The notes beneath the pieces are model-generated. The model worked only from the letters and a program-made list of their open reading frames with translations, was not told the DNA's origin and made no database searches. A stretch of DNA of 34,591 bases from an uncultured bacterium (GTDB lineage Bacteria > Bacillota > Clostridia > Lachnospirales > Lachnospiraceae): NCBI GenBank assembly GCA_947177425.1, contig CAMWUN010000038.1, positions 1 to 34,591 on the forward strand, given 5' to 3'. The translations under genes and the position numbers were made by a program. This document shows positions 6,986 through 23,238 of this stretch, piece after piece; position 1 is the first letter of the stretch; each line of letters starts with the position of its first letter.

Positions 6986-7088
6986 AGTCATCACCCCCGC
7001 TGCAAGCAACGGGGTATGTGACCCTCGCGGCAGTCGCCAGATATCCGTGCAGGCACGTCTGCCTGGCTTGTTGCTCGCGGGAATCAAA
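6986..7088 (+). repeat. Intergenic hairpin-forming repeat element, copy A
   Basis: The gap between the ABC ATPase and STAS genes holds a structured element. A first hairpin pairs CCCCG (6995-6999) with CGGGG (7010-7014). A second pairs the ends of 7026-7040 (CGCGGCAGTCGCCAG) with 7063-7079 (CTGGCTTGTTGCTCGCG), enclosing a small GTGC/GCAC inverted repeat. A related copy lies at 16296-16370 with shared cores GCGGCAGyCGCCAGA and CCTGGCTTtG. It lies inside a likely operon and has no T-tract, so it may be an RNA-stability or attenuation element rather than a simple terminator, or a dispersed REP/MITE-like repeat. Confidence 0.65.
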
Positions 7089-7109
7089 AATAGAAAAGAG
7101 GTATAAAAA

Positions 7110-7412
7110 ATGAAAATCATGAAAACACAAAACGGAAACAGTTTATGTCTTGCACTGGAAGGGAGACTGGACACCAATACGGCGCCGGAGCTGGAGACGG
7201 TCATTAAAGGCTCCATTGACGGAACTGCGGAACTGACCATCGATATGGCAGCGCTGGATTATCTGTCATCAGCAGGGCTTCGTGTCCTTTTAGGAGCCCA
7301 GAAAATCATGAATAAGCAGGGAAGCATGCGTGTGACCCATGTCAACGACACCATTATGGAAATTTTTGAAGTGACAGGGTTTGCGGATATTCTGACTATA
7401 GAGAAAGCATAA
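7110..7412 (+). CDS. STAS-domain anti-sigma factor antagonist (SpoIIAA/RsbV-like)
   Basis: A 100-aa single STAS domain, the usual length. Residues 13-22 (CLALEGRLDT) are the first conserved strands. DMAALDYLSSAGLRVLL (45-61) is the phospho-acceptor segment, with Ser54 aligned to the Ser phosphorylated in SpoIIAA. The C-terminal helix region IMEIFEVTGFADIL is typical. In partner switching the unphosphorylated form binds the anti-sigma kinase and frees its target, the kinase phosphorylates it, and a PP2C phosphatase restores it. The kinase candidate is at 1574 and the phosphatase at 11798. The gene sits directly before the NRPS gene with its own ribosome site (AAAGAGGT). Confidence 0.93.
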   Translation: MKIMKTQNGNSLCLALEGRLDTNTAPELETVIKGSIDGTAELTIDMAALDYLSSAGLRVLLGAQKIMNKQGSMRVTHVNDTIMEIFEVTGFADILTIEKA

Positions 7413-7438
7413 GCGCGGATTCGCAGGAGGACTGCGGC

Positions 7439-7465
7439 ATGGAAACACATAAAAAAATGAGGTAA
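7439..7465 (+). other. Possible 8-codon leader ORF before the NRPS gene
   Basis: An ATG at 7439 lies eight bases after a perfect AGGAGG (7425-7430) and opens an 8-codon frame (METHKKMR) that ends 17 bases before the NRPS start. The ribosome site is better than that of the NRPS gene itself. It may couple or tune NRPS translation, or be chance. Confidence 0.25.
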
Positions 7466-7482
7466 AAAACGGAGATATGATT

Positions 7483-10400
7483 ATGACAGCAGAAAAGCAG
7501 ATGAGAAGACTTAATTTATCACAGACACAGATTGTAATGACAGAGCAGGCACGTCCGGGCAGTGCGCAAAATACGATTTCTCTGAAACTTCACCTGCCGC
7601 ATCATACTCCGTGGATGGTGAAAGAGGCGGCGGATATTGTACTTGACAGTGCGGATATTTTTGCCGCCGCTCTCTGTTGCAGGGACGGAAAGTGGATGTT
7701 TTCCCGGGGCACAGGCAAGGTTTCTGAATGCACGATCGGAAAGGAACGGGATGCGGAACTGGCGGAAGAATACATGTCAGCCATGGACAGGCGTGGGTTT
7801 CCTATGGAGCAGTGTCTGTATCAGGCGGAAGTTATCCCCCTTTCAGGAGGAGGTGTGCTTTTGTATGTGCGTTTTCACCATGTGATTATCGACGGATACG
7901 GCATGAGTCTGTTTGTGCAGAAGGTGCTGGATGTGCTTGCCGGGAAAGGAACTGCCCGGTCAGTGTTTTTCCCTGAATACCTGCCTGCACAGGAGGATGC
8001 AGGTAAAAGCCCTATTGCCGGGGAGGGCCCATCTGTTACATACGGACAGGAGGACGGATTCTGGCCCTCCTATTTTGACGGCGCGGAATTTGAGAGCGCT
8101 GTTTTTCCGCAGAAAGCGGAAGGGAACAGCTTTGGAAGCTGCCGGGTGAGTGTGCCGGAAAAACTTATGAGAGAAGCAGAAGCGTTTGGGGAAAGGGAGG
8201 ATACTTCAATCCCTTATATTTTTGCGGCTGCCACTGCCCTTTATCTGGCCCGGGCCACTGGCAAAAAGTATGCCGTGTTCCTAATGCCCCGTTTAAACCG
8301 TACATCCGGGCAGATGGACACACTGGGCTGTTACACCCTGCTTGTTCCGGTAAGGGTGCAGGTGGAAGGGACGGATACCTTTGCAGAATTATGCCGGAAG
8401 GTGAAAAAAGCGTCAAGGGAGGCATCGGCCCATAAGGAATGCGGCTTTGACCGGATTCTTTCCGCACTGCGGGATAAAAACATGATAGGAGAATCCCTTT
8501 CGGAATATGTATTTAATTTTTATCGGTTTTCTTTCCGCACGGAATTTTCTTACAGCGTCCGGTTCAGTGTGGCGGGAGCTATGGCAAACCATCTGACCTT
8601 TAACCTGTTTTGTAATGAAAAGGGTGGTCTGGATTTACAGCCGGATTATCAGGAAAGCATTTATACAGAGGAAAAGGCCGGGTATTTCTGCGATGCCATC
8701 CTTGCGGTAGTGGTGCAGGGAACAGCGGGCCCGGGGCAGCCTGCCCCGGGCAGCGTCAGTGGGGGCAGTCCGGCGCCGGAGAAGCTTTCAGATATCACAA
8801 CGGCAGGGGAAGCGGAATACCGGAAAATCATGTCGGTGACAGGGAAAACATTTCCCGTTGGAAAAGAACTTACAATTCCGTCCCTCTTTTTGCGGGCGGC
8901 AGAAAGGTATAGGGATGCCCCTGCCCTGTATGCCGGGGAACATGCCTTTACCTTCGGCCAGCTTGATGAGATAAGCAGCCGGATTGCCTGCGGGTTAAGG
9001 CGCCTTGGGGTAAAAAGCGGCGACAGCGTTGCTTTTATGTTAAAGCGGGATTACCGTCTGATTCCTGCAATCCTTGGCATATCAAAGGCAGGGGCGGCTT
9101 TTATCCCGGTAGACCCTGCTTATCCTGCGGACAGAATTTCCTATATAATGGAAAACAGTCAGGCGGCCCGTCTGATTTCGTCCAGGGATGTAGAAATTGC
9201 GGAAAAATACGATTACATAGAGATAGACGCTCTTTTATCCCAGGAGACAGAGCCTGAACTTTTGCCGGAAATTAAGCAGGATGATCTGGCCTATATGATT
9301 TATACGTCGGGCACCACAGGGCGCCCCAAAGGGGTAATGCTTTCCCACAGGGGAATTGCAAATATTGTGTATCCGGATAATAATCCCTTTAACCGGGACA
9401 TCACCAGAAACTGTCACGGTATTGTGGCCATCGGCTCCATCTGCTTTGATATTTCTTTGTTTGAAATCTTTGTGCCGCTGATGAACGGCCTGTTTGTAGA
9501 ACTTGGCAGCGAGAAGGCCATGATGGATGCAGGGGAGCTGGCGGCTCATATCCTGCGCCACGGTGCAGATATCCTCCACTGCACGCCTTCACGGATTACG
9601 GCTTATCTGGCTAACGGCGCCTTTCTGAAAGCCTTAGGCAGCGTGAAAGCCATTCTTGCTGCCGGGGAGGTTCTGCCGGGAAGTCTTGTAAAGCGCCTGG
9701 GGGACACTTACGGGATAAGGATTTACAATGGCTACGGCCCTACGGAGACGACCATCGGGGCCACCATTACCGAGGCGGGGGACGCGGTTTCCATCGGTAC
9801 GCCTATTGCCAATATGGGCATCATTCTCTTAAACGGGGAGAGGAATCCGGTTCCTTTCGGAGCTGTGGGAGAAATATGCGTATATGGGAACGGCGTGGGC
9901 ATCGGCTATAAAGACAGGCCGGAAGAGACAGAAGCAAAATATGTGGACTGGCGAGGCATAAGGCTGTACCGGACAGGGGATCTGGGGTATTTTTCTGACG
10001 AGGGAAAGCTTATGTACTGCGGCAGAAACGACAGGCAGGTGAAACTGCGGGGACTGCGGATTGAGTTATCGGAAATTGAAAACGTTATGGGAGAGTTTCC
10101 CGGTGTGGCGGCATGCTGCTGTATTATACGGAAAATTGAAAAGACCGACCATCTGGCAGGCTTTTATACGGCATTGTCCGGGGAAAAAATAGACGGGGAG
10201 GCGTTAAAGGCCCATATGAAGGCAAGACTTACCTCCTATATGGTGCCGGATGTGTTAAAAGAGCTTGCTGCCATGCCCCAGACGCCAAACGGCAAGGCCG
10301 ATTTAAAAGCCCTTGCCAGGGAGCCGGTGGAATATGTCCGTGTCTACAAAAAACCGGAGACAGAGAAGGAAAAACTGGTCTGCAGCGCTTTTGAAGAGGT

Positions 10401-11781
10401 GCTGAATGTGGAGCAGGCCGGGCTGGACGATAATTTCTTTGAGCTGGGGGGCGATTCCTTAAATGCAGTCACGGTAATGCTTAAAATCGAAGAAAAGCTG
10501 GAACTTTCTGAAAATCAGTTGGAATTTGGGGATTTATACCAGTTTCCCACGCCTGCCCTTCTGCTGGAGCGGATCTACAAAAAGACAGACAGCAGTGAAG
10601 ATGCAGGATTTGACATAAAGACTCTGGATTACAGCGGATTTGGGGAATATCTTGCCGCCCATACCAGGAGGGAGGCGGGCCGTAAGCACCTTGGAAATGT
10701 ACTGCTGACGGGGGTGACAGGGTACCTTGGGATACATATTTTAGTGGATTTGCTTAAGAATCCGGAACTGTGCGGCAAAATCGTCTGTCTTTCACGGCCC
10801 AGAAAAACCCTTACGGCCCTGAAGCGGGTGAAATCCTCCTTATTTTATTATGCGGAAGAGGACTTTTCGGCAAGCTGCGGGGAAAAGTGGATGGTGGCGG
10901 AAGGGGATATCACCAACCCTGACATTTTTGCCCAGGACTGCCCTGTCCACATTGACACGATTATCAATTCCGCCGCCAATGTATCCCATTTTTCCTATGG
11001 GGATAACTTAGAAAAGATTAATACGCAGGGGGTCAAAAATCTCATCTGCTTTGCAAAAAGGGAAGGAGCGGCGCTCTGCCAGATTTCCACCATCAGCGTT
11101 GCGGGACTCACCGCAGGGGACGCCAAAAAGGACAGCTTTGGCGAACCGGATTTTTATATCGGGCAGGAAATACACAATAAGTATATTTATTCCAAATATA
11201 TGGCGGAATATGAAATGCTGCGGGCGGCGGTGGAAGACGGGCTGGAAATTAAAATCATGCGCATCGGGAACTTACAGGGGCGTATCTGCGACGGGGAGTT
11301 TCAGATGAATCTCCATTCCAACGCTTTTACACGCCAGTTTTCTTCCTACATTAAAATGGGGGCAGTGCCAAAGTCTGTCTATGAGGGAAGCGTGAATTTT
11401 TCCCCTGTGGACGAGACGGCACATAATATCGTTGCACTGGCGGCAACAAAGGAAGACACGGTAATCTTCCATGTATACCCGCCTATGGAGCTGAAATTTG
11501 CGGATTTGTTCCGGGGGGCCGTAAAACTGGGGTATTCCATTGACGTACTGCCTGACGAAGAATTCTTTGAGCTGCTTCAGGAGAAAAAGCGGACGGAGGA
11601 AGGAAGGGAACAGCTCCAGGGACTTATGACAAACGAACTGTCTAAGGGCCGCAGGGAAATCCCTGTGGTACAGGAAATTACGGACAGATATTTACAGGAT
11701 TTAGGGGAAAGGTGGAGTACCATTACCGAAGAATATATAAGCAAATATCTGTCTGCTTTAAGCGGCATGGATTTATTTTAA
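7483..11781 (+). CDS. Single-module nonribosomal peptide synthetase, C-A-T-reductase
   Basis: A 1432-aa product. The ATG at 7483 is eight bases from GGAG; the ATG at 7477 is too close. A condensation domain (about 10-420) carries HHVIIDG near residue 131. The adenylation domain (about 455-940) has YTSGTTGRPKG, FDISLFEIF, NGYGPTETT, YRTGDLG, GRNDRQVKLRGLRIEL and PNGKAD with the catalytic Lys. The carrier domain has FFELGGDSL near residue 988. The C-terminal thioester reductase (about 1070-1432) has GVTGYLG and YIYSK (YxxxK), so the product should leave as an aldehyde or alcohol. The specificity code read by eye is roughly D-I-F-H-L-A-G-I-G-K, which I cannot assign to an amino acid. A starting C domain suggests an acyl or peptidyl donor supplied in trans. 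No phosphopantetheinyl transferase is in the window. Confidence 0.93.
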   Translation: MTAEKQMRRLNLSQTQIVMTEQARPGSAQNTISLKLHLPHHTPWMVKEAADIVLDSADIFAAALCCRDGKWMFSRGTGKVSECTIGKERDAELAEEYMSAMDRRGFPMEQCLYQAEVIPLSGGGVLLYVRFHHVIIDGYGMSLFVQKVLDVLAGKGTARSVFFPEYLPAQEDAGKSPIAGEGPSVTYGQEDGFWPSYFDGAEFESAVFPQKAEGNSFGSCRVSVPEKLMREAEAFGEREDTSIPYIFAAATALYLARATGKKYAVFLMPRLNRTSGQMDTLGCYTLLVPVRVQVEGTDTFAELCRKVKKASREASAHKECGFDRILSALRDKNMIGESLSEYVFNFYRFSFRTEFSYSVRFSVAGAMANHLTFNLFCNEKGGLDLQPDYQESIYTEEKAGYFCDAILAVVVQGTAGPGQPAPGSVSGGSPAPEKLSDITTAGEAEYRKIMSVTGKTFPVGKELTIPSLFLRAAERYRDAPALYAGEHAFTFGQLDEISSRIACGLRRLGVKSGDSVAFMLKRDYRLIPAILGISKAGAAFIPVDPAYPADRISYIMENSQAARLISSRDVEIAEKYDYIEIDALLSQETEPELLPEIKQDDLAYMIYTSGTTGRPKGVMLSHRGIANIVYPDNNPFNRDITRNCHGIVAIGSICFDISLFEIFVPLMNGLFVELGSEKAMMDAGELAAHILRHGADILHCTPSRITAYLANGAFLKALGSVKAILAAGEVLPGSLVKRLGDTYGIRIYNGYGPTETTIGATITEAGDAVSIGTPIANMGIILLNGERNPVPFGAVGEICVYGNGVGIGYKDRPEETEAKYVDWRGIRLYRTGDLGYFSDEGKLMYCGRNDRQVKLRGLRIELSEIENVMGEFPGVAACCCIIRKIEKTDHLAGFYTALSGEKIDGEALKAHMKARLTSYMVPDVLKELAAMPQTPNGKADLKALAREPVEYVRVYKKPETEKEKLVCSAFEEVLNVEQAGLDDNFFELGGDSLNAVTVMLKIEEKLELSENQLEFGDLYQFPTPALLLERIYKKTDSSEDAGFDIKTLDYSGFGEYLAAHTRREAGRKHLGNVLLTGVTGYLGIHILVDLLKNPELCGKIVCLSRPRKTLTALKRVKSSLFYYAEEDFSASCGEKWMVAEGDITNPDIFAQDCPVHIDTIINSAANVSHFSYGDNLEKINTQGVKNLICFAKREGAALCQISTISVAGLTAGDAKKDSFGEPDFYIGQEIHNKYIYSKYMAEYEMLRAAVEDGLEIKIMRIGNLQGRICDGEFQMNLHSNAFTRQFSSYIKMGAVPKSVYEGSVNFSPVDETAHNIVALAATKEDTVIFHVYPPMELKFADLFRGAVKLGYSIDVLPDEEFFELLQEKKRTEEGREQLQGLMTNELSKGRREIPVVQEITDRYLQDLGERWSTITEEYISKYLSALSGMDLF

Positions 11782-13362: not shown

Positions 13363-13827
13363 ATGGAAAATGCAGCAATGCTGAAATTTCATGCAGACGA
13401 TATTATTTTGAAAGAGGGCGGGACTTATGAGGAAATGTACAAAATCATATCCGGTTCCGTGGCAGTTTATATCCGGTATGGGGAAAAAGAGGAACATCTG
13501 ATTGGGATTTATTCCAAGCCAAAGTGTTTTGGGGAAACCCATGTGCTTTCCGTCCAGCCCAGTATTTACACAGTGGTCGCTTATGACGAAGTGCTGCTGA
13601 TGCGCATTACAAAGGATTCCTTAGAGGAATTCATCAGGAACAATCCCAGAAACGCAATTGATATCATGCAGAATATGGTGCATACCAATATGCTGATGCA
13701 GAAAAATATCGACCTTCTGCTGGATGATATTTATGAAAAGCAGGATATCAATAAAAAGAGGACAGAAGACATTAAAAATAAGATTAAGCAGTACCGCATG
13801 AACGGGTTTAATCTTTTGGGAGTCTGA
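13363..13827 (+). CDS. Cyclic-nucleotide-binding-domain protein without HTH
   Basis: A 154-aa product. Residues 5-95 match the Crp/cNMP beta-roll: FHADDIILKEGG, MYKIISGSVAVYIRYG, PKCFGETHVLSVQPSIYTVVAYDEVLLMRI. A long helix (about 90-135) and a charged tail follow. There is no winged helix or HTH, so it is not a normal Crp/Fnr regulator. It probably senses a ligand or acts as a protein partner. Start ATG 13363 follows a GGGAGGCAGAAGG site. It lies downstream of the phosphatase gene, and such CNB domains are known alongside partner-switching proteins, so a regulatory role on the phosphatase is reasonable inference. The canonical cAMP-binding Arg is not clearly present. Confidence 0.8.
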   Translation: MENAAMLKFHADDIILKEGGTYEEMYKIISGSVAVYIRYGEKEEHLIGIYSKPKCFGETHVLSVQPSIYTVVAYDEVLLMRITKDSLEEFIRNNPRNAIDIMQNMVHTNMLMQKNIDLLLDDIYEKQDINKKRTEDIKNKIKQYRMNGFNLLGV

Positions 13828-13828
13828 G

Positions 13829-13951
13829 ATGCCGGATTTTACCCTTACTATTGCTGCGTTGGGAAAGTGGGGAAGCGTATGGACATCAGATTTCTGCTGA
13901 TGACGCTGATTCTGGGAGGCAGAACTGACAGAGCTGGCCGGGAAACTTAAG
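13829..13951 (+). other. Interrupted reading frame in front of the acyltransferase gene
   Basis: One base after the preceding stop codon an ATG at 13829 opens 23 codons (MPDFTLTIAALGKWGSVWTS...). The same frame is then stopped by TGA TGA CGC TGA (13898-13909), reopens as FWEAELTELAGKLKMPDARK and runs in frame into the acyltransferase gene. Both parts look like protein (hydrophobic start, then a charged helix), so this may be a small gene or N-terminal domain broken by mutation. There is no second copy in the window to compare with, and chance openness is possible. Confidence 0.3.
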
Positions 13952-14011
13952 ATGCCTGATGCAAGGAAGCTGTGGGAAAAATGTGAAAAATTGCAGAGGG
14001 AGATGAAGAAA

Positions 14012-15172
14012 ATGAGTACAGTTTTTTCGCGTGAAGAGATAAATACAGGAAGACAAAGGGAGTTTGATTACCTGAAAGGTATTTTTATGCTGTTTATTTA
14101 CCTGATTCATGCGTTTCAGGCAACCATGTCTGCGGAGGATTCCATTACCAGTGGGGTTTATATGTTCGCCACTATGTCCGGTGCGGCTATTTTCATCTTT
14201 GTTATGGGAATTGGGACTGTGTACAGCAAAAATACAGCGCCGGCGGAGTTTTCAAAGAGCGGTATCCGCATGGTAATTTACCAGTATCTGAATAACATTG
14301 CTTATGTAGCCGCACTGCTTTTACCGTACCCTTTCGTCCGTGGAAACCTGTCGGATGCCGGAATGGGGAATTTTACACTGTTGGTAAAGATTTACATTCA
14401 GTATACAAATATCTTTTTTATTACCGGCATCATATATCTTGTACTGGCATTACTTAGAAAAATTGAAATCAGGCGTTGCTCTGTTTCCCAGGCCGGATTT
14501 TTGAGGAAAGCTGCCGGGTACGTGATAATGGGTCTGGCAGTCAGCATAGCCGCCCCGTTTCTTTATGGAAAAACTGTAAATGTGCCGGTGATTGGGTATG
14601 TGGTGAAGCTTCTGATTGGAGAAGCGGATTTTGTTTCCTTTACACCGCTTTATTTTCTGTCCTATGCGCTGTTTGGAGTTGCCTTTGGCGAAATCCTGCG
14701 GCATGTGAAGGATAAGGCGGGATTTTACAAAAGGCTGGCCATCCCCTGTATTGTCATTGTCATTGCATGGTGGGCGCTGATATTCAGAAAGTATGGTTCG
14801 GACATATCACAGATGCGTGCAGTGCTGGGGGACGCGTATACCCTGCCTGACTTCTGGCATGTGGCAGCAAGTATGGCGCACATATTGTTTTTTGCCATAA
14901 TTATTTTCCTCATTGAAAAAAGAACCGGAAGGAAAGCTGGCAGGAGGATGCAGGAACCAGGGAATCCTGTCACGAGGCAGCTTCTGTATTATAGCAGACA
15001 TATATCAAAGTATTATGCGCTGCATGTGACGGTATATTTCATTGCTTTAGGGATGCATGGTTATGAGAGTTTTAAGAGTTATCAGTGCTGGTTTCTTACA
15101 CTGTTGTCAATGATTGTTACAGAGTTTATGGTAAGGGGATACAATTCATTGTTTGAAAGAATAAAAAAATGA
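14012..15172 (+). CDS. Acyltransferase-3-like integral membrane protein
   Basis: A 386-aa product from the ATG at 14012, ten bases after AGGGAG; earlier in-frame ATGs (13952, 14003) lack good sites. It begins with RQREFDYLKGIFMLFIYLIHAFQ, the R-x-x-x-x-D-x-L-K-G...H motif of membrane acyltransferases (Acyl_transf_3/OafA-like). About nine to ten hydrophobic segments follow. Such enzymes move acyl groups onto sugars, peptides or lipids at the membrane. As the last gene of the NRPS operon it could modify the NRPS product, but the family is wide and some members are not enzymes. The His in HAF is the candidate catalytic residue. Confidence 0.7.
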   Translation: MSTVFSREEINTGRQREFDYLKGIFMLFIYLIHAFQATMSAEDSITSGVYMFATMSGAAIFIFVMGIGTVYSKNTAPAEFSKSGIRMVIYQYLNNIAYVAALLLPYPFVRGNLSDAGMGNFTLLVKIYIQYTNIFFITGIIYLVLALLRKIEIRRCSVSQAGFLRKAAGYVIMGLAVSIAAPFLYGKTVNVPVIGYVVKLLIGEADFVSFTPLYFLSYALFGVAFGEILRHVKDKAGFYKRLAIPCIVIVIAWWALIFRKYGSDISQMRAVLGDAYTLPDFWHVAASMAHILFFAIIIFLIEKRTGRKAGRRMQEPGNPVTRQLLYYSRHISKYYALHVTVYFIALGMHGYESFKSYQCWFLTLLSMIVTEFMVRGYNSLFERIKK

Positions 15173-15193
15173 TTTCCGGTCAGGAGGTAGCAG

Positions 15194-15222
15194 TTGACTT
15201 TTTCCCCTGCGGCCAATATAAT
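15194..15222 (+). promoter_or_regulatory. Consensus-like sigma-A promoter in the gap before tatD
   Basis: TTGACT (15194-15199), a 17-base spacer and TATAAT (15217-15222) match the vegetative consensus in 11 of 12 positions. Transcription should begin near 15229, more than 270 bases before tatD. The 328-base gap 15173-15500 holds this promoter, a hairpin terminator at 15352 and no convincing gene. Confidence 0.85.
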
Positions 15223-15228
15223 TTAATT

Positions 15229-15385
15229 ATTGGGAAAGTTTGTAAAATATGCCAGAATCAGTAGAGACATTCTGTATGAAACGAAACAGAGATTGCTTAT
15301 TGGGCAGGATGACAGAAAATAGCATAATAGTATGATGAAAGTGGTGACGGGGATACGGCGTTGGGGAAGGCCGTATCTTTTGTTT
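15229..15385 (+). ncRNA. Candidate small RNA or attenuated leader upstream of tatD
   Basis: A strong promoter ending at 15222 and a rho-independent terminator at 15352-15385 bound a transcript of about 157 bases. The only ORF in it (ATG 15249, 28 codons) has no good ribosome site. I do not recognise an Rfam class. It could be a free small RNA or a terminated leader of tatD with partial read-through. The ends are predicted, not observed. Confidence 0.5.
15352..15385 (+). terminator. Rho-independent terminator inside the tatD upstream gap
   Basis: GATACGGC (15352-15359) pairs perfectly with GCCGTATC (15370-15377) over a ten-base loop and is followed by TTTTGTTT. It ends the transcript that starts near 15229, about 120 bases before tatD. 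Confidence 0.75.
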
Positions 15386-15500
15386 ACCATTTTTTAAATT
15401 CAATAAACAAATAGCGTGTTCCCATGCATATGTGACCTGTTTTAGTGTAACGGCGTTGGTTTTGGCAGTAATACATGAATACAAAGTGGAAGGAAAAGAA

Positions 15501-16295
15501 ATGGAAATAAAATATTATGATATAGGATTAAATCTCTTCTGCAGACAGTTCCCGGAACCGGAAAAGATTATCAGCGGGGCGGAAAACGAAGGCGTATGCT
15601 GTATTCTGACGGGAACAGATATGAAAGAAAACAGCAGAATCAATGATTTTGTAAAAACCCACAATGTCTTTGGCACAGCCGGGATACATCCCCACAATGC
15701 TGACAGGGCAAAGCAGGAAGACTTTGAACAGATGGAGAAGATATTTTCGGAAAACGAAAAAGTAGTTGCTGTGGGAGAGTGCGGCCTGGATTATGACAGG
15801 ATGTTTTCTGCCAGGGAAAATCAGATTAGATGCTTAGAGAAGCATATTGTGCTTGCGGAAAAGCTGCATATGCCGTTGTTTCTTCACGAACGGAGCGCCG
15901 CGGATGACTTTACCAGAAGATTTAAAAAGCATCCCGAAATATGTAAGAATTCCGTAGTCCATTGTTTCACGGGCGATAAGAAAACATTAGACAGGTATTT
16001 ATCCATGGGATTTTCTATTGGCATAACGGGATGGATTTGCGATGACCGCCGGGGAGGGGAATTGCGGGAGGCTGTATCCATGATTCCTCTGGACCGGATT
16101 CTGGTGGAAACAGACGCACCCTATCTGACACCTAAGAATGTGCCGAATCTTAACAGGACAAACGTACCACAGAATATTAAGTACGTGGTAAGGGAACTTT
16201 CAAAATATATGAAGGTGCCGGAAGAGGAACTGATGGAAAATGCCAGAAAAAATACAGAGAGAATTTTTCATTTAAAGCAGGCAGTCTCTCTGTAA
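15501..16295 (+). CDS. tatD: TatD-family metal-dependent hydrolase/DNase
   Basis: A 264-aa product, close to E. coli TatD in length. The start at 15501 (MEIKYYDIGLNLF) follows GGAAGGAAAAG; the 23 codons open upstream are not conserved-looking. It has the TatD-proper version of the first motif (DIGLNL rather than DxHxH), then TAGIHPHNAD, VGECGLDYDR, LFLHERSA, VVHCFTG, the GITGWICDDRRGGELRE stretch that is nearly the same as in E. coli TatD, and VETDAPYL. TatD enzymes are reported as Mg-dependent 3'-5' exonucleases in DNA repair and degradation. The gene stands apart from the flanking clusters and is probably housekeeping. Confidence 0.93.
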   Translation: MEIKYYDIGLNLFCRQFPEPEKIISGAENEGVCCILTGTDMKENSRINDFVKTHNVFGTAGIHPHNADRAKQEDFEQMEKIFSENEKVVAVGECGLDYDRMFSARENQIRCLEKHIVLAEKLHMPLFLHERSAADDFTRRFKKHPEICKNSVVHCFTGDKKTLDRYLSMGFSIGITGWICDDRRGGELREAVSMIPLDRILVETDAPYLTPKNVPNLNRTNVPQNIKYVVRELSKYMKVPEEELMENARKNTERIFHLKQAVSL

Positions 16296-16370
16296 GCAGG
16301 CGGGGATTGCACCCGCGCGGCAGCCGCCAGAAACAGGGAAACCTGGCTTTGACCCGCTGCCCGTGGGTAT
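16296..16370 (+). repeat. Intergenic hairpin-forming repeat element, copy B
   Basis: This element directly follows the tatD stop codon. It contains GCGCGGCAGCCGCCAGAAA and CCTGGCTTTGACCCGCTGCC, which correspond to the two arms of copy A at 7026-7079. The arms can pair GCCAG with CTGGC and, further out, GGCAG with CTGCC. The upstream part (GCAGGCGGGGATTGCACCC) also aligns with copy A. The inner loop is shorter than in copy A. There is no T-run, so it is not a classic terminator. Confidence 0.6.
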
Positions 16371-16432
16371 AAAATTTAATCAACGGCAGTACAACAGGTA
16401 AAACGATCATTATTTACGAAAGGAGAAGAAGT

Positions 16433-17086
16433 ATGGCAGATTATGGGAATGAGATTTCTTCTATCAGCCTGGGCAGTATTATCGGAGGGGCGCTGAGCGC
16501 AATTGTTGAAGCCCAGAGCCAGGCGGCGCATACGACAGTAAATTTCATAAACGAGGTAGGGTTTGAGGGAAATCCGGAAGAAAGAAAACCTGTATATGTA
16601 AACTTTCAGTATGAAAAGACAATTCAGCCCGATAAAGAAGAAAAGAAGGAAGGACAGGAAGACGAAGGAGGGCAGGCAGTAAATTTAAAACAGATTACAA
16701 ATCTGAAAGTCCCTCTGCTGACAATGGTGCCGATTCCCTATATCAGGGTCGATGATGCCACCATTGATTTTAATGTAAAAATAAACTCCGTACAGGAGAC
16801 AAAAACATCCTCTGATTTGACATATGGAGGGAATGTGGATGCCCATGCCAACTACAACGGATTCCGTTTCAAAACAGGAATTAAGTTAAGCGCTTCCATT
16901 TCCAATCAGAAAAAAAGCAGTAGATCAGATAATGTACAAAGGGATTATTCTTTAAATATCCATGTACATGCAAAGCAGGATGATATGCCTGCCGGTGTGG
17001 AGCATCTGCTGGACCTGCTTTCTGACGCATCGTCCACAGAGACACGGGTTGTTCCGGTTAAAGAGAGGGGTGAGGGTAAATCATGA
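16433..17086 (+). CDS. DUF2589-family protein
   Basis: A 217-aa product starting behind AAAGGAGAAGAAGT. The N-terminal helix (about 10-44, SLGSIIGGALSAIVEAQSQA then TTVNFINEVGF) and the strand block VPLLTMVPIPYIRVDDATID (93-112) followed by FNVKINSVQ are the hallmarks of DUF2589. A charged Glu/Lys/Gln linker (about 64-84) separates them. The C-terminal part (about 125-200) continues as beta strands (GGNVDAHANYNG, SLNIHVHAKQDD). There is no signal peptide. The biochemical role of DUF2589 is unknown to me. It begins a tight co-directional cluster with a second DUF2589-like protein, whose start overlaps this stop as ATGA, and with a LanM-type enzyme. Confidence 0.8.
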   Translation: MADYGNEISSISLGSIIGGALSAIVEAQSQAAHTTVNFINEVGFEGNPEERKPVYVNFQYEKTIQPDKEEKKEGQEDEGGQAVNLKQITNLKVPLLTMVPIPYIRVDDATIDFNVKINSVQETKTSSDLTYGGNVDAHANYNGFRFKTGIKLSASISNQKKSSRSDNVQRDYSLNIHVHAKQDDMPAGVEHLLDLLSDASSTETRVVPVKERGEGKS

Positions 17087-17934
17087 TAACATTTGGCGAG
17101 TTTGCAGGAACACTGATTACGGATTTTTTACAGGCACGTAAAATAGCTGACGCATACAGCGCCGCTTTATCGGAAGAATATTATGTCAATCCGGTTTTGA
17201 GAGGGATGCCGGTTCCGCATTATACCGTTGACGAGGCGGAAATAGATGTTCCCATGAAAATTATGGGGGTCAGAAGGGCGGAGATTACAAAGGAAGACCT
17301 AAGGAACATATTAGTAAAGATTGAGCAGAAACTGCCTGTACTTTTATACCGGAATATTAAAAACAGCTATTATGAAAAGCAGGAAAACATTGTTTTTATA
17401 AAAAATGGAACAATCGAAGCAGAGCAGGTGGGCGTGGCGTTTGATTTTGGCGCTGACAAAAAGGAAAAGGCCGGAATTATCCGTTTAAGCCAGGTGCCGG
17501 AATTAAAAGCCTGCTACAAAGCGTCTACAGCATCGGTCTGCACCCTGATGAATACTTACATGAAAACCTATGTAGAAGAAAACAATATCGGTGAGATGAA
17601 ACTGTTAGACTTTACAGATGCTTTCATAGCCACATTAAAGAGTGTATGCAAACAGGAGTTTGGCACATATCCGGATGAGCAGACGCCCTTCATCAATAAA
17701 GATTCACTGAAAAAGATGTGTGAAACCATAGGAAGCGCCATGTTTTTTGAATTCAGGGAAATATTTGAACAGAAAGAAGGCATCCTGGTGTTACCGGAGA
17801 CTGGTAAAATGGAAAGCAGTTCACCGGAACAGCTTATGCGGGTTAAGATCAAAATCAAAGAACAGGATGTCAGCTTTGTTGTGGACCGGGATGAAAGCAG
17901 CGGAGAAACAAAACGTTTTTTGACATTGGGGTGA
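17083..17934 (+). CDS. Second DUF2589-like protein with long unique C-terminal region
   Basis: A 283-aa product whose ATG overlaps the previous stop (ATGA), so translation is coupled. The N-terminus repeats the DUF2589 pattern in shorter form: a helix (FGEFAGTLITDFLQARKIA) and then GMPVPHYTVDEAEIDVPMKI (41-60), which aligns with VPIPYIRVDDATIDFNVKI of the preceding protein. The remaining 220 residues are mixed alpha/beta with no motif I recognise (for example ASVCTLMNTYMKTYVEENN and FREIFEQKEGILVLPETGK). No membrane segment or signal peptide. The pair probably forms a complex; this rests on the shared domain and the gene overlap. Confidence 0.7.
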   Translation: MITFGEFAGTLITDFLQARKIADAYSAALSEEYYVNPVLRGMPVPHYTVDEAEIDVPMKIMGVRRAEITKEDLRNILVKIEQKLPVLLYRNIKNSYYEKQENIVFIKNGTIEAEQVGVAFDFGADKKEKAGIIRLSQVPELKACYKASTASVCTLMNTYMKTYVEENNIGEMKLLDFTDAFIATLKSVCKQEFGTYPDEQTPFINKDSLKKMCETIGSAMFFEFREIFEQKEGILVLPETGKMESSSPEQLMRVKIKIKEQDVSFVVDRDESSGETKRFLTLG

Positions 17935-17938
17935 TACC

Positions 17939-18508
17939 ATGCTTTCCATACTTGTCATAGAAGAATTTGAAAATTATTTTGCCGGAATGATTCCGGTGGC
18001 GGAATATATTGCAAAAGAACATTATATGCTGGAAGAAAAGGCAGGGGAATATATGGCCGGGCTTGTGGGCTTAAGCGAAAAGTTCCACATGCCTTTTGCA
18101 CCTGACATAGCTGTCATAAAAGGAAAAATTCAGAATTATGTGCCGGATTTGCATGAAGAAGTAAGAAACGGCAGATATGAGAAAAAGATAAAAAGACAGT
18201 ATCTTCTTGACTGCCTGTCGGAGGCAAAAGCCTGCACAGATGATTACTTTGCAAAGACGCGGCAGCTTCTGGAGGAAAGCAGTATTCTGCTTAGAAAAGT
18301 TGCAGCGGTGGCAGCAGCAAAAGGCTTACTGGAAAAGCAACAGGCAGCACGTTCCGCGGGCCAGCTTATCGATATAGATGATATCATATTGTGTATGAAG
18401 CAGGACGCTGAATTAATGCCTGCATTGACAAGCGCCATTGGAACGGCAGGATATCTGAACATGAAATGTCTGCTGGAACGGGCGGTCAGCGAAGTGCTGG
18501 AAGAATAG
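17939..18508 (+). CDS. Unknown helical protein in the DUF2589 cluster
   Basis: A 189-aa product starting four bases after the preceding stop. It reads as almost all helix, with heptad-like stretches (YLLDCLSEAKACTDDYFAKT, LLRKVAAVAAAKGLLEKQQAA) and an acidic segment IDIDDIILCMKQ. There is no signal peptide or membrane segment, and I recognise no family. Tight spacing in the cluster suggests that it works with the DUF2589 proteins, for example as a scaffold or partner. Confidence 0.65.
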   Translation: MLSILVIEEFENYFAGMIPVAEYIAKEHYMLEEKAGEYMAGLVGLSEKFHMPFAPDIAVIKGKIQNYVPDLHEEVRNGRYEKKIKRQYLLDCLSEAKACTDDYFAKTRQLLEESSILLRKVAAVAAAKGLLEKQQAARSAGQLIDIDDIILCMKQDAELMPALTSAIGTAGYLNMKCLLERAVSEVLEE

Positions 18509-18591
18509 CATGTGCAGATGCAGGCAGAAAATTGAAAAGTACGGATTCTGCACAGCAGAGCCATAAAAGAAGTACAGGAATGGAGAAAAAT

Positions 18592-18951
18592 ATGAATAAA
18601 AGAGAATTTGACCAGGTGGTTGACCTGACCCACTTTTTGGAAAAATATACGCAGCAGGCTATTAATACCGAAAGGAATAAGACATCTGCATTCTCAGATG
18701 AAGATAAAAAAATATGGGATTTATATTTTAAAATGTTGATAAAGCCGGGAATTCTGCCAGACGGCATGGCGTTTGGCCAGGCAAGTAACGATACCAATGT
18801 GGGTATCGGCAGTGACGGACGATTCTATCTGGATGAATTTATGCAGTTATTAATGCAGTGTTATAAATATTTGTACACTGCCCTTTCAAGCGGAGAGGTA
18901 TTTTTAAAATATAAGAACTGGCAGACAGCAGATGCAAAAGAAACACTATAA
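18592..18951 (+). CDS. Unknown small protein directly upstream of the LanM-like gene
   Basis: A 119-aa product. The start at 18592 (MNKREFDQVV) is chosen because GGAG lies eight bases before it; the open frame upstream is low-quality sequence overlapping the previous gene. It is helical and hydrophilic, with one Cys (LLMQCYKY) and several Ser/Thr. A central GILPDGMAFGQASNDTNVGIGSDGRF stretch (described in parts: GILPDG, GQASND, GIGSDG) is the least helical and could be a loop. There is no double-glycine leader and no Cys-rich core, so a lanthipeptide precursor is unlikely. It might still be the protein substrate of the next gene's product. Family unknown. Confidence 0.6.
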   Translation: MNKREFDQVVDLTHFLEKYTQQAINTERNKTSAFSDEDKKIWDLYFKMLIKPGILPDGMAFGQASNDTNVGIGSDGRFYLDEFMQLLMQCYKYLYTALSSGEVFLKYKNWQTADAKETL

Positions 18952-18985
18952 TCAGCAAATGAAAAAGTGATAAGGGAGAAAATAT

Positions 18986-20614
18986 ATGTATAGGGCAACA
19001 GATGCATGTGACGAAGACCTGGCGGCATATATTTCAGCCATCAGCAGACTGAATTCCAGAATAGAGTGGCCTCTTCATTCCTATATTACGTGCAAAAGTG
19101 TAGAAAATGAATTTACTTTATTAAAAGGTTTTTATATGAAGAAACAGACCGGAATGTCCAGAGGCGGCATACTGGTACTGCTGGACAGCATACACGACTA
19201 TACACAGTACAAAACCTTAGCCCGTCTGCACAGGGAACTGATGCAGGTCTGTATAAAACCGGAATTCGATTACATAGGAGAAGGGCCATATACCTTTTTC
19301 TATTTTGTATACAAGAACCAGCAGCAGGCTATATACCTGCTGGACTGTGCGGCCGGAATTTACGAATGCTTTGGAGAGAACACGCATAAGGTATTGGAAT
19401 ATTTGTTCCAGTTGGGCAATTATGTGACAGCAGACGGCGGGGAGCAGATTAATGCAGGAAAGTTCGTGGATTTCTTTTTTAGGCGGGCAGGTATCTATAT
19501 GGAAGGATTCCGGAATATCAGACAAATGCTTACCAATGTCCGCCTGCCTGCAGGATGCCGCATTACGGAAGAGAATATGGTGCCAACGACAGGCGATATG
19601 CACGGCAAGGGTAAAATTCCCTATATTATTGAAAATGCGAAAGGAAATTTTGTATATAAGCCCCGGGATATGAGGCTGGACTGTCTGATTATGGAAACAT
19701 TGTCCTTCTTTAACAGTTTTTTGGATGAACAGTTCAGGCTGCCTGTTTTAGGCATTTATCTGCTTCCCGATTATACAGGGCTTATGCAGTTTGCCTTACA
19801 TGCAGAAGAAATGGACAGGGCGCAGGCGGAAGGCTATTTCCTGAAATTTGGAGCGTTGCTGTGTTTTTCAAAATTGTTTGGCATTGACGACCTCCATACG
19901 GAAAATATTATGGCTACGTCAGAAGGGCCTGTTATAATAGATTTGGAATGTTCTCTTTTATCCAGTCTGATAAAAAAGAAATCCATAGCAAACGATAATC
20001 TTGCGCGGATTGCGGCAGCTTTTAGTGAGAAAATAAGGGAAAATGCCACATTTTTGGTGGAAGGGCATATCCAGCCCTTAAGGGTTTTTGGACCTTTTAT
20101 CCTGGAGGGATTTTCCCATGCTGCTGAGCGTTGCCAGATGCATAAAGAAGAACTGGAACGTTACTATACCGATTTGAGGAAACAGCCGTTTTTTTACAGA
20201 GTTGTTCCTGTCCACACATCAGGATTTTATACCTATATGCATGACATCGTAAGTTCCTGCACTGACAGCAGCCAGATAGAAATTATTCTGGGCTATGCAT
20301 TTGAAGAGGCTGTAGATGATTTATGTATAAAATGCTGCCAGACAAAAGAGGCGTTTACAGACTGTCTTCAGACGGATTTGCTGGTTCAGGCAATGTACAG
20401 CGGCATGTTTTGGGGAAATATCCCGCTGTTTCAGTTTGCTGATACAGTTGACGATGGGGGGAATTTTTTCCGTATGGGGTATTTAGATGGTTTCCCGATC
20501 TTTAAGGCGCCCCTTGCAGTGGGGTCGCTTGGACAACTGCTGGCAGAGTTTTCGGAACAGATTGACTGGCTGGCGTCAGAAGAGGCTGCGCAGTCAGTAA
20601 GTGGATTGCTTTAG
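18986..20614 (+). CDS. Free-standing LanM-type dehydratase domain (DUF4135-like), no cyclase
   Basis: A 542-aa product, about half a LanM synthetase. It keeps the kinase-like core: FVYKPRDMRLD with Lys225, DDLHTEN with Asp302, His304 and Asn307, and IIDLE with Asp319. The spacing D-x-H-x2-N and then 12 residues to Asp equals that of the CylM dehydratase site. A later FYRVVPVHT (Arg405, Thr411) has the same six-residue step as the Arg and Thr that CylM uses to eliminate phosphate. GNIPLF near residue 470 matches the end of the LanM dehydratase region. The zinc-binding LanC cyclase domain is absent and the N-terminal region is short. It may phosphorylate or dehydrate Ser/Thr in an unusual protein target; candidates are the neighbouring proteins. 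Confidence 0.8.
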   Translation: MYRATDACDEDLAAYISAISRLNSRIEWPLHSYITCKSVENEFTLLKGFYMKKQTGMSRGGILVLLDSIHDYTQYKTLARLHRELMQVCIKPEFDYIGEGPYTFFYFVYKNQQQAIYLLDCAAGIYECFGENTHKVLEYLFQLGNYVTADGGEQINAGKFVDFFFRRAGIYMEGFRNIRQMLTNVRLPAGCRITEENMVPTTGDMHGKGKIPYIIENAKGNFVYKPRDMRLDCLIMETLSFFNSFLDEQFRLPVLGIYLLPDYTGLMQFALHAEEMDRAQAEGYFLKFGALLCFSKLFGIDDLHTENIMATSEGPVIIDLECSLLSSLIKKKSIANDNLARIAAAFSEKIRENATFLVEGHIQPLRVFGPFILEGFSHAAERCQMHKEELERYYTDLRKQPFFYRVVPVHTSGFYTYMHDIVSSCTDSSQIEIILGYAFEEAVDDLCIKCCQTKEAFTDCLQTDLLVQAMYSGMFWGNIPLFQFADTVDDGGNFFRMGYLDGFPIFKAPLAVGSLGQLLAEFSEQIDWLASEEAAQSVSGLL

Positions 20615-20628
20615 AAAGGAAAAATAAA

Positions 20629-21759
20629 ATGAGATATCCTGAATTTTTAAAGGAAAAAGGCACTGTGGGATTCGTAGCGCCCTCCTTCGGGTGTGCAGGA
20701 GAACCTTACAGAACGGCATTTGAAAATGCCATAAATAAGTGGAAGGAAATGGGATACAGCGTGGATTTGGGGCCTAACTGCTTTGAAGCGTCAGGGACAG
20801 GCATCAGCAATACTCCGGAAAAATGCGCACAGGAACTGACCGGTTATTACTTAAGCCATAAGAATGATGTGCTTATTTCCTGCGGCGGCGGGGAACTTAT
20901 GTGTGAAATTCTGGAGCATGTGGATTTTGATGCCATAAAGCAGGGCGCTCCCAAGTGGTTTATGGGCTATTCCGACAATACCAACATGACTTTCCTGCTG
21001 GCTACCATTTGTGATACAGCATCTATTTATGGGCCCTGCGGGTGTGTTTTTGGCATGGAGCCGTGGCATGTGTCTGTGAGGGATGCGGTGGAACTTATTA
21101 CGGGGAAAAAATGTCTGATGGAAAGTTATGAAAAGTGGGAGAAGGAAAAATTAAAGGATGAAGAACATCCCCTTCTGTCTTATAACTGTACGGAAGATCT
21201 TGCCCTTAAAGTTTATATTCCACAGATAGAGAAACCTGATGCCGGCGGAATAAGAACGGAAGAAAATTCTTTGGCAGATGCATCCGGCAGAGAGGAACTA
21301 CGGGACGGAGACATCCCCATGGAAGAAAGCAGAAGCGGGGTCATGGAAGGCCGTCTGATTGGGGGATGTATGGATTGTCTGGTGAATCTGACGGGTACAA
21401 AATTCGACAAGGTAAAAGAGTTCACAGACAAATACAAAGAGGACGGCTTTATCTGGTTTCTGGAAGCCTGCGATTTAAATGTATTCGGCATTAGAAGAGC
21501 CATGTGGCAGATGGAGCAGGCGGGATGGTTCCGGTATGTAAAAGGCTTCCTCTTTGGCAGGCCCCTGTGCCACGGGCAGGAGATGATGGGGCTTGACCAG
21601 TATGAGGCAGTGCTTCCCACAGCGCGCAGGCATAAGGTTCCGGTGATGATGGATGTGGATCTGGGACATCTCCCTCCCATGATGCCCTTAGTTACGGGAA
21701 GCATGGCAAAAGTTACGGCCAAAGAGGGAAAACTGGAAGTAAGGATGGAGTATCGGTAA
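20629..21759 (+). CDS. S66-family peptidase (LD-carboxypeptidase/MccF-like)
   Basis: A 376-aa product. The catalytic triad is complete: Ser115 in MGYSDNTN, Glu279 in WFLEACDLN and His347 in DVDLGHLPP. The N-terminal GTVGFVAPSFGC and SCGGGELMCEIL are typical. S66 enzymes cut L,D-peptide bonds of murein tetrapeptides (LdcA) or amide bonds of microcin-C-like compounds (MccF, self-immunity). A hydrophilic insert at about 200-240 is longer than I would expect for LdcA and looks like a variable loop. It begins 14 bases after the LanM-like gene, so it is in the same transcript. That position fits immunity or processing for a modified peptide, but recycling of cell wall is equally possible. Confidence 0.88.
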   Translation: MRYPEFLKEKGTVGFVAPSFGCAGEPYRTAFENAINKWKEMGYSVDLGPNCFEASGTGISNTPEKCAQELTGYYLSHKNDVLISCGGGELMCEILEHVDFDAIKQGAPKWFMGYSDNTNMTFLLATICDTASIYGPCGCVFGMEPWHVSVRDAVELITGKKCLMESYEKWEKEKLKDEEHPLLSYNCTEDLALKVYIPQIEKPDAGGIRTEENSLADASGREELRDGDIPMEESRSGVMEGRLIGGCMDCLVNLTGTKFDKVKEFTDKYKEDGFIWFLEACDLNVFGIRRAMWQMEQAGWFRYVKGFLFGRPLCHGQEMMGLDQYEAVLPTARRHKVPVMMDVDLGHLPPMMPLVTGSMAKVTAKEGKLEVRMEYR

Positions 21760-21760
21760 G

Positions 21761-22627
21761 ATGAAGAATGAAAACACAGCGACAAGAGAACTTAAAAGAT
21801 TTTTCCTGGTAGTGGCGGCTGCCTGTATCATGGCCATGAATATTAAAAGCTTTATCCGGGCGGGAAACTTAATTCCCGGCGGCTTTAACGGGCTTACCCT
21901 GCTGATCCAGCAGATAGGGGTGGAATTCTTCGGGATACAGATTCCTTTTACACTGGTCAATCTATTGCTCAATTCCATCCCGGTGTTTATCAGCTTTAAG
22001 TTTATCGGGAAAAAATTTACCGGATATTCCTGTCTTATGATTGTTCTCTCGGGCATTTTGACAGATATACTGCCCGGCTATCCGGTCACGGACGATATTC
22101 TTCTGGTCTGCGTATTCGGGGGGATTATCAATGCATTTGCCATAAGTCTGTGCCTGTTCGCTGACGCCACCAGCGGGGGGACGGATTTTATCGCCATTTT
22201 CTTTTCAGAAAAATACGGAATAGATACATGGAACTATATTTTTGCGGCCAATGTGATTGTTCTTTTGATTGCGGGAGGACTGTTCGACTGGAATGAAGCC
22301 CTTTACTCTATTATATTCCAGTTTACCTCCACTCAGGTTCTGCATTTTATTTATAAACGGTACCAGAAGCAGACGCTGTTCATCATCACCCAGAAACCCG
22401 ATGAGGTTTACGAATCTATCAGGGATATCACCAATCATGACGCCACTTTATTTAAGGGGACAGGATGCTTTAGGAAGCATGAATGTAACATGCTTTATTC
22501 CGTGGTGGGAAGCGATGAAATCCGTAAGGTTGTGTCCAGAATAAGGGAAGTTGACGGGCAGGCGTTTATTAATACGGTAAAGACCGAGCATATTACGGGA
22601 AGATTTTACAAAAGACCTAACGATTGA
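21761..22627 (+). CDS. YitT-family membrane protein (DUF161 + DUF2179)
   Basis: A 288-aa product beginning one base after the S66 stop codon. There are five to six membrane segments in the first 190 residues, with GNLIPGGFNGLTLLIQQ near the start and FADATSGGTDFIAIFFSEK in the middle, both typical of YitT proteins. The C-terminal DUF2179 domain (about 205-285) shows KQTLFIITQKPDEVYESI and VDGQAFINTVKTEHITGRFYKRP. The function of the family is not settled; a transport role is usually assumed. It may be an unrelated member of the transcript. Confidence 0.9.
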   Translation: MKNENTATRELKRFFLVVAAACIMAMNIKSFIRAGNLIPGGFNGLTLLIQQIGVEFFGIQIPFTLVNLLLNSIPVFISFKFIGKKFTGYSCLMIVLSGILTDILPGYPVTDDILLVCVFGGIINAFAISLCLFADATSGGTDFIAIFFSEKYGIDTWNYIFAANVIVLLIAGGLFDWNEALYSIIFQFTSTQVLHFIYKRYQKQTLFIITQKPDEVYESIRDITNHDATLFKGTGCFRKHECNMLYSVVGSDEIRKVVSRIREVDGQAFINTVKTEHITGRFYKRPND

Positions 22628-22652
22628 ATAAAAATCGTGCGATGAATGACAG

Positions 22653-22681
22653 TTGAAGCGGCGTATCATGTTCTTTATAAT
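22653..22681 (+). promoter_or_regulatory. Sigma-A promoter for the Spo0A-like gene
   Basis: TTGAAG (22653-22658), a 17-base spacer and TATAAT (22676-22681) lie in the 92-base gap before the Spo0A-like gene. Transcription should begin about 30 bases before the GGAGGG ribosome site at 22711. Confidence 0.75.
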
Positions 22682-22722
22682 AGATTCATAGCAATATTTG
22701 TGAAAAAGATGGAGGGAACATG

Positions 22723-23238
22723 ATGGAACAGTTAAATTTGTCGGCGGTTAAGGATCCGGAACGGGTATATAAAATCTTGGGAGAACTGATACATATGGAC
22801 AGGGAATTCCAGATTATGATAACAGTCCCGTCCGGCAATCATTCTTCTTTTGCAGAAGAGGACAGGACAGAATCGGACAAGAAGTTAAGCTACAACCTGG
22901 AAAAAGACGTAACAGATATGATTCATGAGATTGGCGTTCCTGCGCATATAAAGGGATATCAGTATTTACGGGAAGCCATTATGATGTCCGTGGAAGACCC
23001 GGAGATGCTCGGCTCCATAACCAAAGTTCTGTATCCGACCATCGCCAGAAAGAATCAGACTACAGCGAGCCGTGTGGAACGGGCAATCCGGCATGCGATT
23101 GAGGTGGCGTGGAACAGGGGCAGAATGGAAACGCTGGATGCCATGTTTGGGTACACCATCAATACCGGAAAAGGAAAACCTACCAATTCTGAATTTATTG
23201 CGCTTATTGCCGATAAAATCCGGCTTCAGTACCGTTAA
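22723..23238 (+). CDS. Spo0A-type DNA-binding-domain protein lacking a receiver
   Basis: A 171-aa product. GGAGGG at 22711-22716 favours the ATG at 22723 over 22720. Residues 60-165 are the Spo0A C-terminal domain: [27 protein letters not shown], then [21 protein letters not shown] and [17 protein letters not shown], all near-identical to the sporulation master regulator. The first 55 residues are not a CheY-like receiver (no phospho-Asp pocket), while true Spo0A is about 265 aa. It may bind 0A-box-like sites without phosphorylation, and so act as an antagonist or constitutive variant of Spo0A. It has its own promoter and a terminator follows it. Confidence 0.9.

Follow-up and report, generated by a model that had tools for sequence, protein, structure and literature searches.

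The question raised by this locus is what a LanM-type dehydratase may do when its reading frame stops at the point where the cyclase should begin, and when its gene closes a small operon opened by a gene of the DUF2589 family. LanM enzymes first phosphorylate Ser/Thr residues and then eliminate the phosphate, and the LanM dehydratases are known from the synthesis of peptide antibiotics. The window, i.e. the whole analysed stretch of 34,591 nucleotides, belongs to a genome of 4.19 Mb (95.3% complete) from an uncultured gut bacterium of the Lachnospiraceae. The first-pass annotation treated positions 18592..20614 as one gene; this interval joins two open frames of the plus strand, a 119-aa ORF (18592-18951) and the dehydratase gene itself (18986..20614, 542 aa), whose product has its closest named match in Lachnospiraceae bacterium 1XD21-87 (94% identity).

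Assignment of the 542-aa protein to the LanM-type dehydratases was obtained from several comparisons. Pfam DUF4135 matched residues 200-333 with E=1.9e-27 and 96.9 bits at a cut-off of 29, as the first-pass annotation had anticipated, and a phmmer search of the PDB returned LicM2 (1.1e-7) and CylM (1.4e-6). A profile built from nine DUF4135 proteins (eight cyclase-less ones including that of the window, and the protein of locus L047) aligned with CylM over 209-586 at 7.7e-31. The AlphaFold model is usable only from approximately residue 211, as pLDDT is under 50 for residues 1-210; with this model the predicted resemblance to the LanM dehydratase fold was borne out, Foldseek placing LicM2 (1.3e-12) and CylM (2.3e-12) at the top of its PDB matches. 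Phosphatidylinositol kinases came next, which is expected from the lipid-kinase fold of CylM as described in PMC4550811. With the LanM synthetases of known structure (CylM, 5dzt; LicM2, 6st5) the protein shares the lipid-kinase-like type of fold, the five residues of the kinase site, the four residues of elimination and, within these four, the six-residue distance between the Arg and the Thr. It differs from them in lacking the LanC half, in belonging to a separate clade and in its score with the NCBIfam LanM model TIGR03897 (79.6 bits against a cut-off of 304), and therefore it is not a LanM synthetase by the NCBIfam test. In all seven other cyclase-less proteins scanned the same model gave 40 to 119 bits.

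Matches to the 542-aa protein were registered in two of 60 relatives (the window's genome and G034), in 28 of 397 family genomes, mostly as open frames above 900 aa, and in 3 of 398 phylum genomes, the window's own genome being counted in each sample. Its nearest independent homologue is a 533-aa protein of genome G123 (loci L033 and L042, the latter from a roe-deer rectum MAG), which is encoded between two DUF2589 genes and has two small ORFs on its upstream side. A pattern scan of genome contigs gave eight loci (L041-L048). Cyclase-less proteins are encoded in seven of them (L041, L042, L043, L044, L045, L046 and L048), while L047 carries a 1009-aa DUF4135 protein of LanM length; this locus (L047:8184-14209, Microbacterium) contains two large DUF4135 proteins in tandem, of 1009 and 910 aa. 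One further cyclase-less protein, L036 of genome G208, came from the search of family genomes. No LANC_like match was found in L036, L042, L043-L046 or L048. In the tree of 39 cores the proteins of the window, L041-L046, L048 and L036 were separated by a branch with 100/98 support from the 30 other rows, in most of which the locus ends within the gene, so that the comparison does not extend to a LanC half. Both this tree and the residue counts given below rest on alignment to a profile of eight clade members and L047. Four loci were dropped before tree building as the same genes (L003, L004, L013 and L035, equal to L034, L042, L036 and L012, respectively), and so was L007, which equals L006 in length and scores although it comes from a different genome. 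The cyclase-less clade contains nine proteins from four phyla (Bacillota, Bacteroidota, Pseudomonadota and Chloroflexota). L034 and L037, two DUF4135 proteins in which LANC_like was likewise not matched, fall outside it, and therefore absence of the cyclase does not define the clade. A phage origin of the dehydratase was considered and rejected, as neither the phage collection nor two scans of viral contigs gave a match. Among plasmids, 18 records matched, annotated as LanM synthetases, and none of them covers 80% of the query.

The 542-aa protein has retained each of the nine residues that were replaced by mutation in the CylM study. The pair presumed to serve phosphate elimination from the P-loop, D204 and H206 (19595..19603; CylM D252 and H254), is followed by the putative kinase residues K225 (19658..19660; CylM K274), D302-H304-N307 (19889..19906; D347, H349 and N352) and D319 (19940..19942; D364), and by R405 and T411 (20198..20218; R506 and T512), predicted to take part in elimination; all are encoded on the plus strand, and the roles are those described for CylM in PMC4550811. 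The seven residues from K225 to T411 had been named in the first-pass annotation, and their positions are right when counted from 18986. Its parallel between the six-residue step of Arg405 and Thr411 and that of CylM also held, since the nine-protein profile aligns the family Arg and Thr to R506 and T512. According to the same paper, alanine mutants of CylM at D252, H254, R506 and T512 accumulate phosphorylated intermediates, while among the kinase mutants (K274, D347, H349, N352 and D364) a small amount of dehydrated product was formed only by co-expressed H349A and K274A. When the incubation was prolonged, modification by H349A and H254A became almost complete or complete, and this residual activity of H349A, K274A and H254A implies that these three positions matter less than the others. 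The nine residues are identical in all nine cyclase-less rows, including L036, which was absent from the profile, so that retention of the Lys/Asp/His/Asn/Asp and Arg/Thr set by homologues, expected in advance, was indeed observed. In the other 30 rows the same letter stands in 26 to 30, two rows having gaps at R506 and T512. The patterns that yielded L041-L048 include the D-L-H-x-x-N motif, and conservation of D302, H304 and N307 in these loci is therefore partly due to selection; the other six residues lie outside the patterns. Based on these data the kinase-phospholyase chemistry predicted for the 542-aa protein can be regarded as well supported by sequence.

A further departure from CylM lies between D319 and R405, in the region of the KA domain. 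The distance was expected to be about 55 residues shorter than in CylM, and it is 86 residues against 142 (CylM 364 to 506), so that the KA segment is shorter by 56. In the nine cyclase-less rows this spacing is 86-116, while in 26 of the 28 other rows measured it is 133-145, with a slight overlap made by L034 (103) and L026 (111). Since the KA domain of CylM, as described in PMC4550811, steadies the activation loop and supplies both R506 and T512, such a truncation could block elimination and leave a protein that acts as a kinase only or as an inactive scaffold. We consider this improbable, as no member of the clade departs from D204, H206, R405 and T411, and such constancy would be difficult to understand if elimination did not take place.

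The expectation that the protein ends where LanC would begin was confirmed, the ORF stopping after the dehydratase half. No LANC_like domain was found in the 95.3% complete genome of the window, which contains one DUF4135 match in all, and this domain is absent from six of the eight clade genomes. Nor did the neighbourhood offer a clear peptide substrate: 12 small ORFs (20-120 aa) outside known genes in 13801-22750 were read by eye and none was convincing. ORFs lying mostly inside known genes were omitted from this reading, and the product of the 119-aa gene is itself a candidate substrate. One of the 12, a 55-aa ORF on the minus strand (15223-15390), carries 3 Cys and 8 Ser/Thr among its C-terminal 40 residues, but it is on the opposite strand and lacks a Gly-Gly-type leader end. 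The first-pass view of a repurposed dehydratase or kinase rather than a lantibiotic maker is therefore supported, with kinase and elimination residues in place, neither cyclase nor convincing precursor found, and a cyclase-less clade around the protein.

One may still suppose that the enzyme makes a RiPP whose precursor and partner proteins are encoded elsewhere. DUF4135 enzymes of another architecture are known to make non-lanthionine RiPPs, the dehydrazoles: their LanMbC dehydratases (CcaM; PMC10676384) likewise perform DUF4135 dehydration without lanthionine formation, but CcaM depends for its activity on a class III-like cyclase domain and comes after a YcaO enzyme. Neither feature was found here, the 542-aa protein having no C-terminal domain and none of the 20 window proteins scanned being a YcaO. 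The genus does contain a YcaO-linked DUF4135 gene in L034, which falls outside the clade, and in the five operon genes no transporter or protease family was matched, although three of the five match nothing at all. Together with the lack of a convincing precursor among the 12 ORFs read and of LanC in the genome this makes RiPP synthesis the least probable of the readings considered, and a very unlikely one. At L034 itself (5733-9639, same genus) the YcaO gene adjoins a 705-aa DUF4135 protein with a 212-aa tail, followed downstream, as judged by eye, by FMN reductase-like and methyltransferase-like genes; this locus may be a RiPP cluster of the dehydrazole type.

Five closely packed genes run in the same direction (16433 to 20614, plus strand), and the dehydratase gene is the last of them. 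The first codes for a 217-aa DUF2589 protein (16433..17086; Pfam E 3.2e-29), which is 44% identical to its homologue in genome G156. It is followed by genes for a 283-aa protein (17083..17934), perhaps a diverged form of the DUF2589 core extended by a long tail, a 189-aa protein (17939..18508) and the 119-aa protein mentioned above (18592..18951). The link of the 17083 product to DUF2589 is weak (30 columns, hhalign probability 12%). For the 119-aa ORF no match was found in Pfam, NCBIfam, PHROGs, PADLOC or the PDB, and its product is a candidate partner, immunity protein or substrate of the enzyme. The same operon, with the 119-aa ORF included, is present in L041, where the dehydratase is 94% identical to that of the window. 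Third-position GC content of the codons amounts to 0.41-0.47 for the five operon genes against 0.47-0.58 for the ten flanking genes measured, which is a weak hint of acquisition. PADLOC, searched for anti-phage defence, gave no match for any of ten proteins. The S66 LD-carboxypeptidase gene situated 15 bp downstream (20629-21759) was rejected as a member of the module: strong S66 matches are present in 20 of the 21 other same-genus genomes examined, while the dehydratase was matched in one of 35 such genomes, by a distant, YcaO-linked protein, and a peptidase conserved in the genus without the dehydratase island was therefore left out. Elsewhere in the window (7477-11781) a 1434-aa single-module NRPS is encoded, with condensation, adenylation, carrier and terminal thioester-reductase domains. 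Its best NCBIfam match, below the cut-off, is aureusimine synthetase, and we take it to be possibly a maker of a peptide aldehyde or pyrazinone.

No function is given by Pfam for DUF2589 (PF11655), which was found in 6 of 299 genomes of the family sample and in 2 of 329 of the phylum sample, the window's genome being included in both counts. The trio 16433-17083-17939 recurs in G156 and G650. The 17083 product is 30% identical to its G156 homologue over 285 columns, and its G650 homologue was found with a profile E of 5.2e-15 among 781 ORFs; the 17939 product shows 22% identity to its G156 homologue (E 2.5e-9 in a set of 24 proteins) and a profile E of 2.7e-13 for that of G650, again among 781 ORFs. 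Downstream of the trio G156 encodes a DUF261 protein, a ricin-type lectin and two proteins of no assigned family, while in G650 no obvious cargo was seen by eye. Beyond these four genes of G156 a solute-binding/glutamate-receptor-like protein is encoded (L061:175-4267), and a recombinase-like ORF was noticed by eye on the opposite side. A second subtype of the module, with a 94-aa partner, occurs in G123, G115, G300 and the Smac51 plasmid. Pairs of DUF2589 genes are also present in viral contigs, of which L102 has genes for the large subunit of terminase and the major head protein, and L100 one for a head-tail adaptor. Given the recurrence of the trio, the varying cargo and the phage contigs, DUF2589 appears to form a module linked to phages, in which the accessory genes can be exchanged. 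Peptidoglycan hydrolases were observed near DUF2589 genes in several loci (muramidase in L063 and L108, GH108 in L099, SLT in L064 and L066, and a DPBB_1 lytic-transglycosylase-like protein in L102), a proximity counted without a control set; none was seen by eye close to DUF2589 in L033, L059, L061, L062 and L109. Two DUF2589 genes are also carried by a 4-kb human-faecal record named "Bacteriophage sp." (L108:144-4015), together with a 259-aa protein weakly similar to the 17083 product (E 3e-4) and the muramidase, which has a peptidoglycan-binding domain; this record may be bacterial rather than phage. A scan of viral contigs with the 189-aa protein gave no match, and a sequence search of the PDB returned nothing for the DUF2589 profile, for the 189-aa and 119-aa proteins or for a 185-aa protein of the G156 locus. 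The predicted DUF2589 structure has a mean pLDDT of 48.5, which is too low for a comparison of folds.

The main rival to the effector role proposed below is that the enzyme phosphorylates or dehydrates the DUF2589 proteins of its own operon, or the 119-aa or 189-aa neighbour, for instance hardening or activating an assembly. Linkage of the dehydratase to DUF2589 in two module subtypes (the window and L041; G123) favours it, although just 6 of 299 family genomes were found to have DUF2589 at all, and for the G123 gene, inserted between two DUF2589 genes, a structural or maturation role fits equally well. Long-form DUF2589 proteins contain a stretch rich in Ser and Thr (22% in that of the window, 35% in the long one of G123). 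This richness was rejected as a substrate hint, since the same stretch reaches 44-46% in three phage-contig proteins. The dehydratase profile, run against every ORF no shorter than 60 aa from 20 DUF2589 loci (a set that excludes the window and L041), found only the known G123 gene; the remaining four DUF2589 genomes of the family sample, G115, G156, G232 and G300, are not among the 28 that matched the 542-aa protein; and of the nine clade loci only those of the window, L041 and L042 showed a DUF2589 gene, the others having been read by eye or scanned in part. Maturation of the operon's own products is, thus, placed second and appears rather unlikely, though less so than loss of elimination activity, which comes third.

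A different partner was registered for the sister proteins, namely extracellular contractile injection systems (eCIS). Pvc16_N and eCIS_core were both found in the same five of the eight clade genomes searched (G208 and those of L044, L045, L046 and L048; the L041 genome was not among the eight). As a background, Pvc16_N occurs in 20 of 200 Lachnospiraceae, and eCIS operons in 1.9% of bacteria according to PMC8213781. From the other DUF4135-matching family genomes only G144 is among those 20, with the reservation that not all of them need be in the 200. In L046 the dehydratase and eCIS_core form one fused protein, whose N-terminal region bearing the latter domain can be aligned in part with L045, and the gene of L044, from Anaerobacterium chartisolvens, lies inside an eCIS cluster, surrounded by Baseplate_J, eCIS_core, DUF4280 and Pvc16_N genes. 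For L036 (G208) and L048 the tie is by genome only, with neither a neighbourhood nor a domain link. Three clade genomes are without eCIS: that of the window, where neither Pvc16_N nor eCIS_core was found, and G123, both having DUF2589 operons, and that of L043. The absence from G123 is weak evidence because this genome is 61% complete, and for the L043 genome there is no completeness figure. At L043 (7840-12183) genes for a LytTR regulator, a 224-aa protein, the cyclase-free DUF4135 protein, a phage-type holin and an amidase stand in a row. In G115 both DUF2589 and eCIS are present, and therefore the two are not alternatives everywhere.

What the computation supports is the family, the fold, the catalytic residues, the clade, the absence of any cyclase found, the DUF2589 operon and the eCIS link of the sisters. 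On this basis we propose that the 542-aa protein works as a class II (LanM-type) kinase-phospholyase on Ser/Thr residues of proteins and is probably the cargo, or effector, of the DUF2589 module, and assign to this reading a probability of roughly 0.45. The cyclase-less enzyme, belonging to a clade apart from lanthipeptide synthetases, would use ATP to phosphorylate Ser/Thr of a protein, and the same active site would eliminate the phosphate leaving dehydroalanine or dehydrobutyrine. It would occupy the cargo position at the end of the DUF2589 operon and would probably act on proteins of another cell. The activity, substrate, delivery and toxicity of the protein are in this scheme what we infer. 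The effector role is put first because the sisters travel with injection systems and because the gene sits in an accessory position of the operon; in G156 this position behind the trio is taken by the DUF261 protein and the ricin-type lectin. The link of the sisters to contractile injection systems also suggests that the targets are elsewhere, which speaks against a neighbouring protein as the substrate, as proposed in the first-pass annotation. Evidence pointing the other way is that no delivery signal was recognised on the 542-aa protein and that the trio of G650 has no cargo obvious to the eye.

Among the systems described so far, the effector role is closest to the eCIS-associated toxins (PMC8213781 and PMC11297309), given that the sister L046 carries eCIS_core and L044 lies in an eCIS cluster, although no eCIS domain was found in the 542-aa protein and no eCIS in the genome that encodes it; neither DUF4135 nor a word beginning with lanthi- occurs in the main text of these two papers. 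A protein similar by description is the 556-aa LanM-like protein of Cardinium cEper2, with distant LanM similarity over 91% of its length, which in PMC12560110 is listed among those with host-interaction potential. From its length it seems too short for a LanC half. The authors of that paper suggest defensive lanthipeptides, unlike the effector role favoured here. No report of an eCIS-linked or DUF2589-linked LanM dehydratase was found, most subscription papers, supplements and preprints being outside the search. A broader and more doubtful generalisation, which we think somewhat unlikely, is that LanM-derived protein-dehydrating effectors form a new class, released or injected by phage-tail-like eCIS particles or by DUF2589 modules and converting Ser/Thr of target proteins to dehydroalanine or dehydrobutyrine, an irreversible lesion for which a single active site would perform both steps. 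If the effector role is true, a chemistry of peptide maturation would have been redirected to the modification of proteins, perhaps as a weapon, and DUF2589, a family distributed in both bacteria and phage contigs, would receive its first functional handle.
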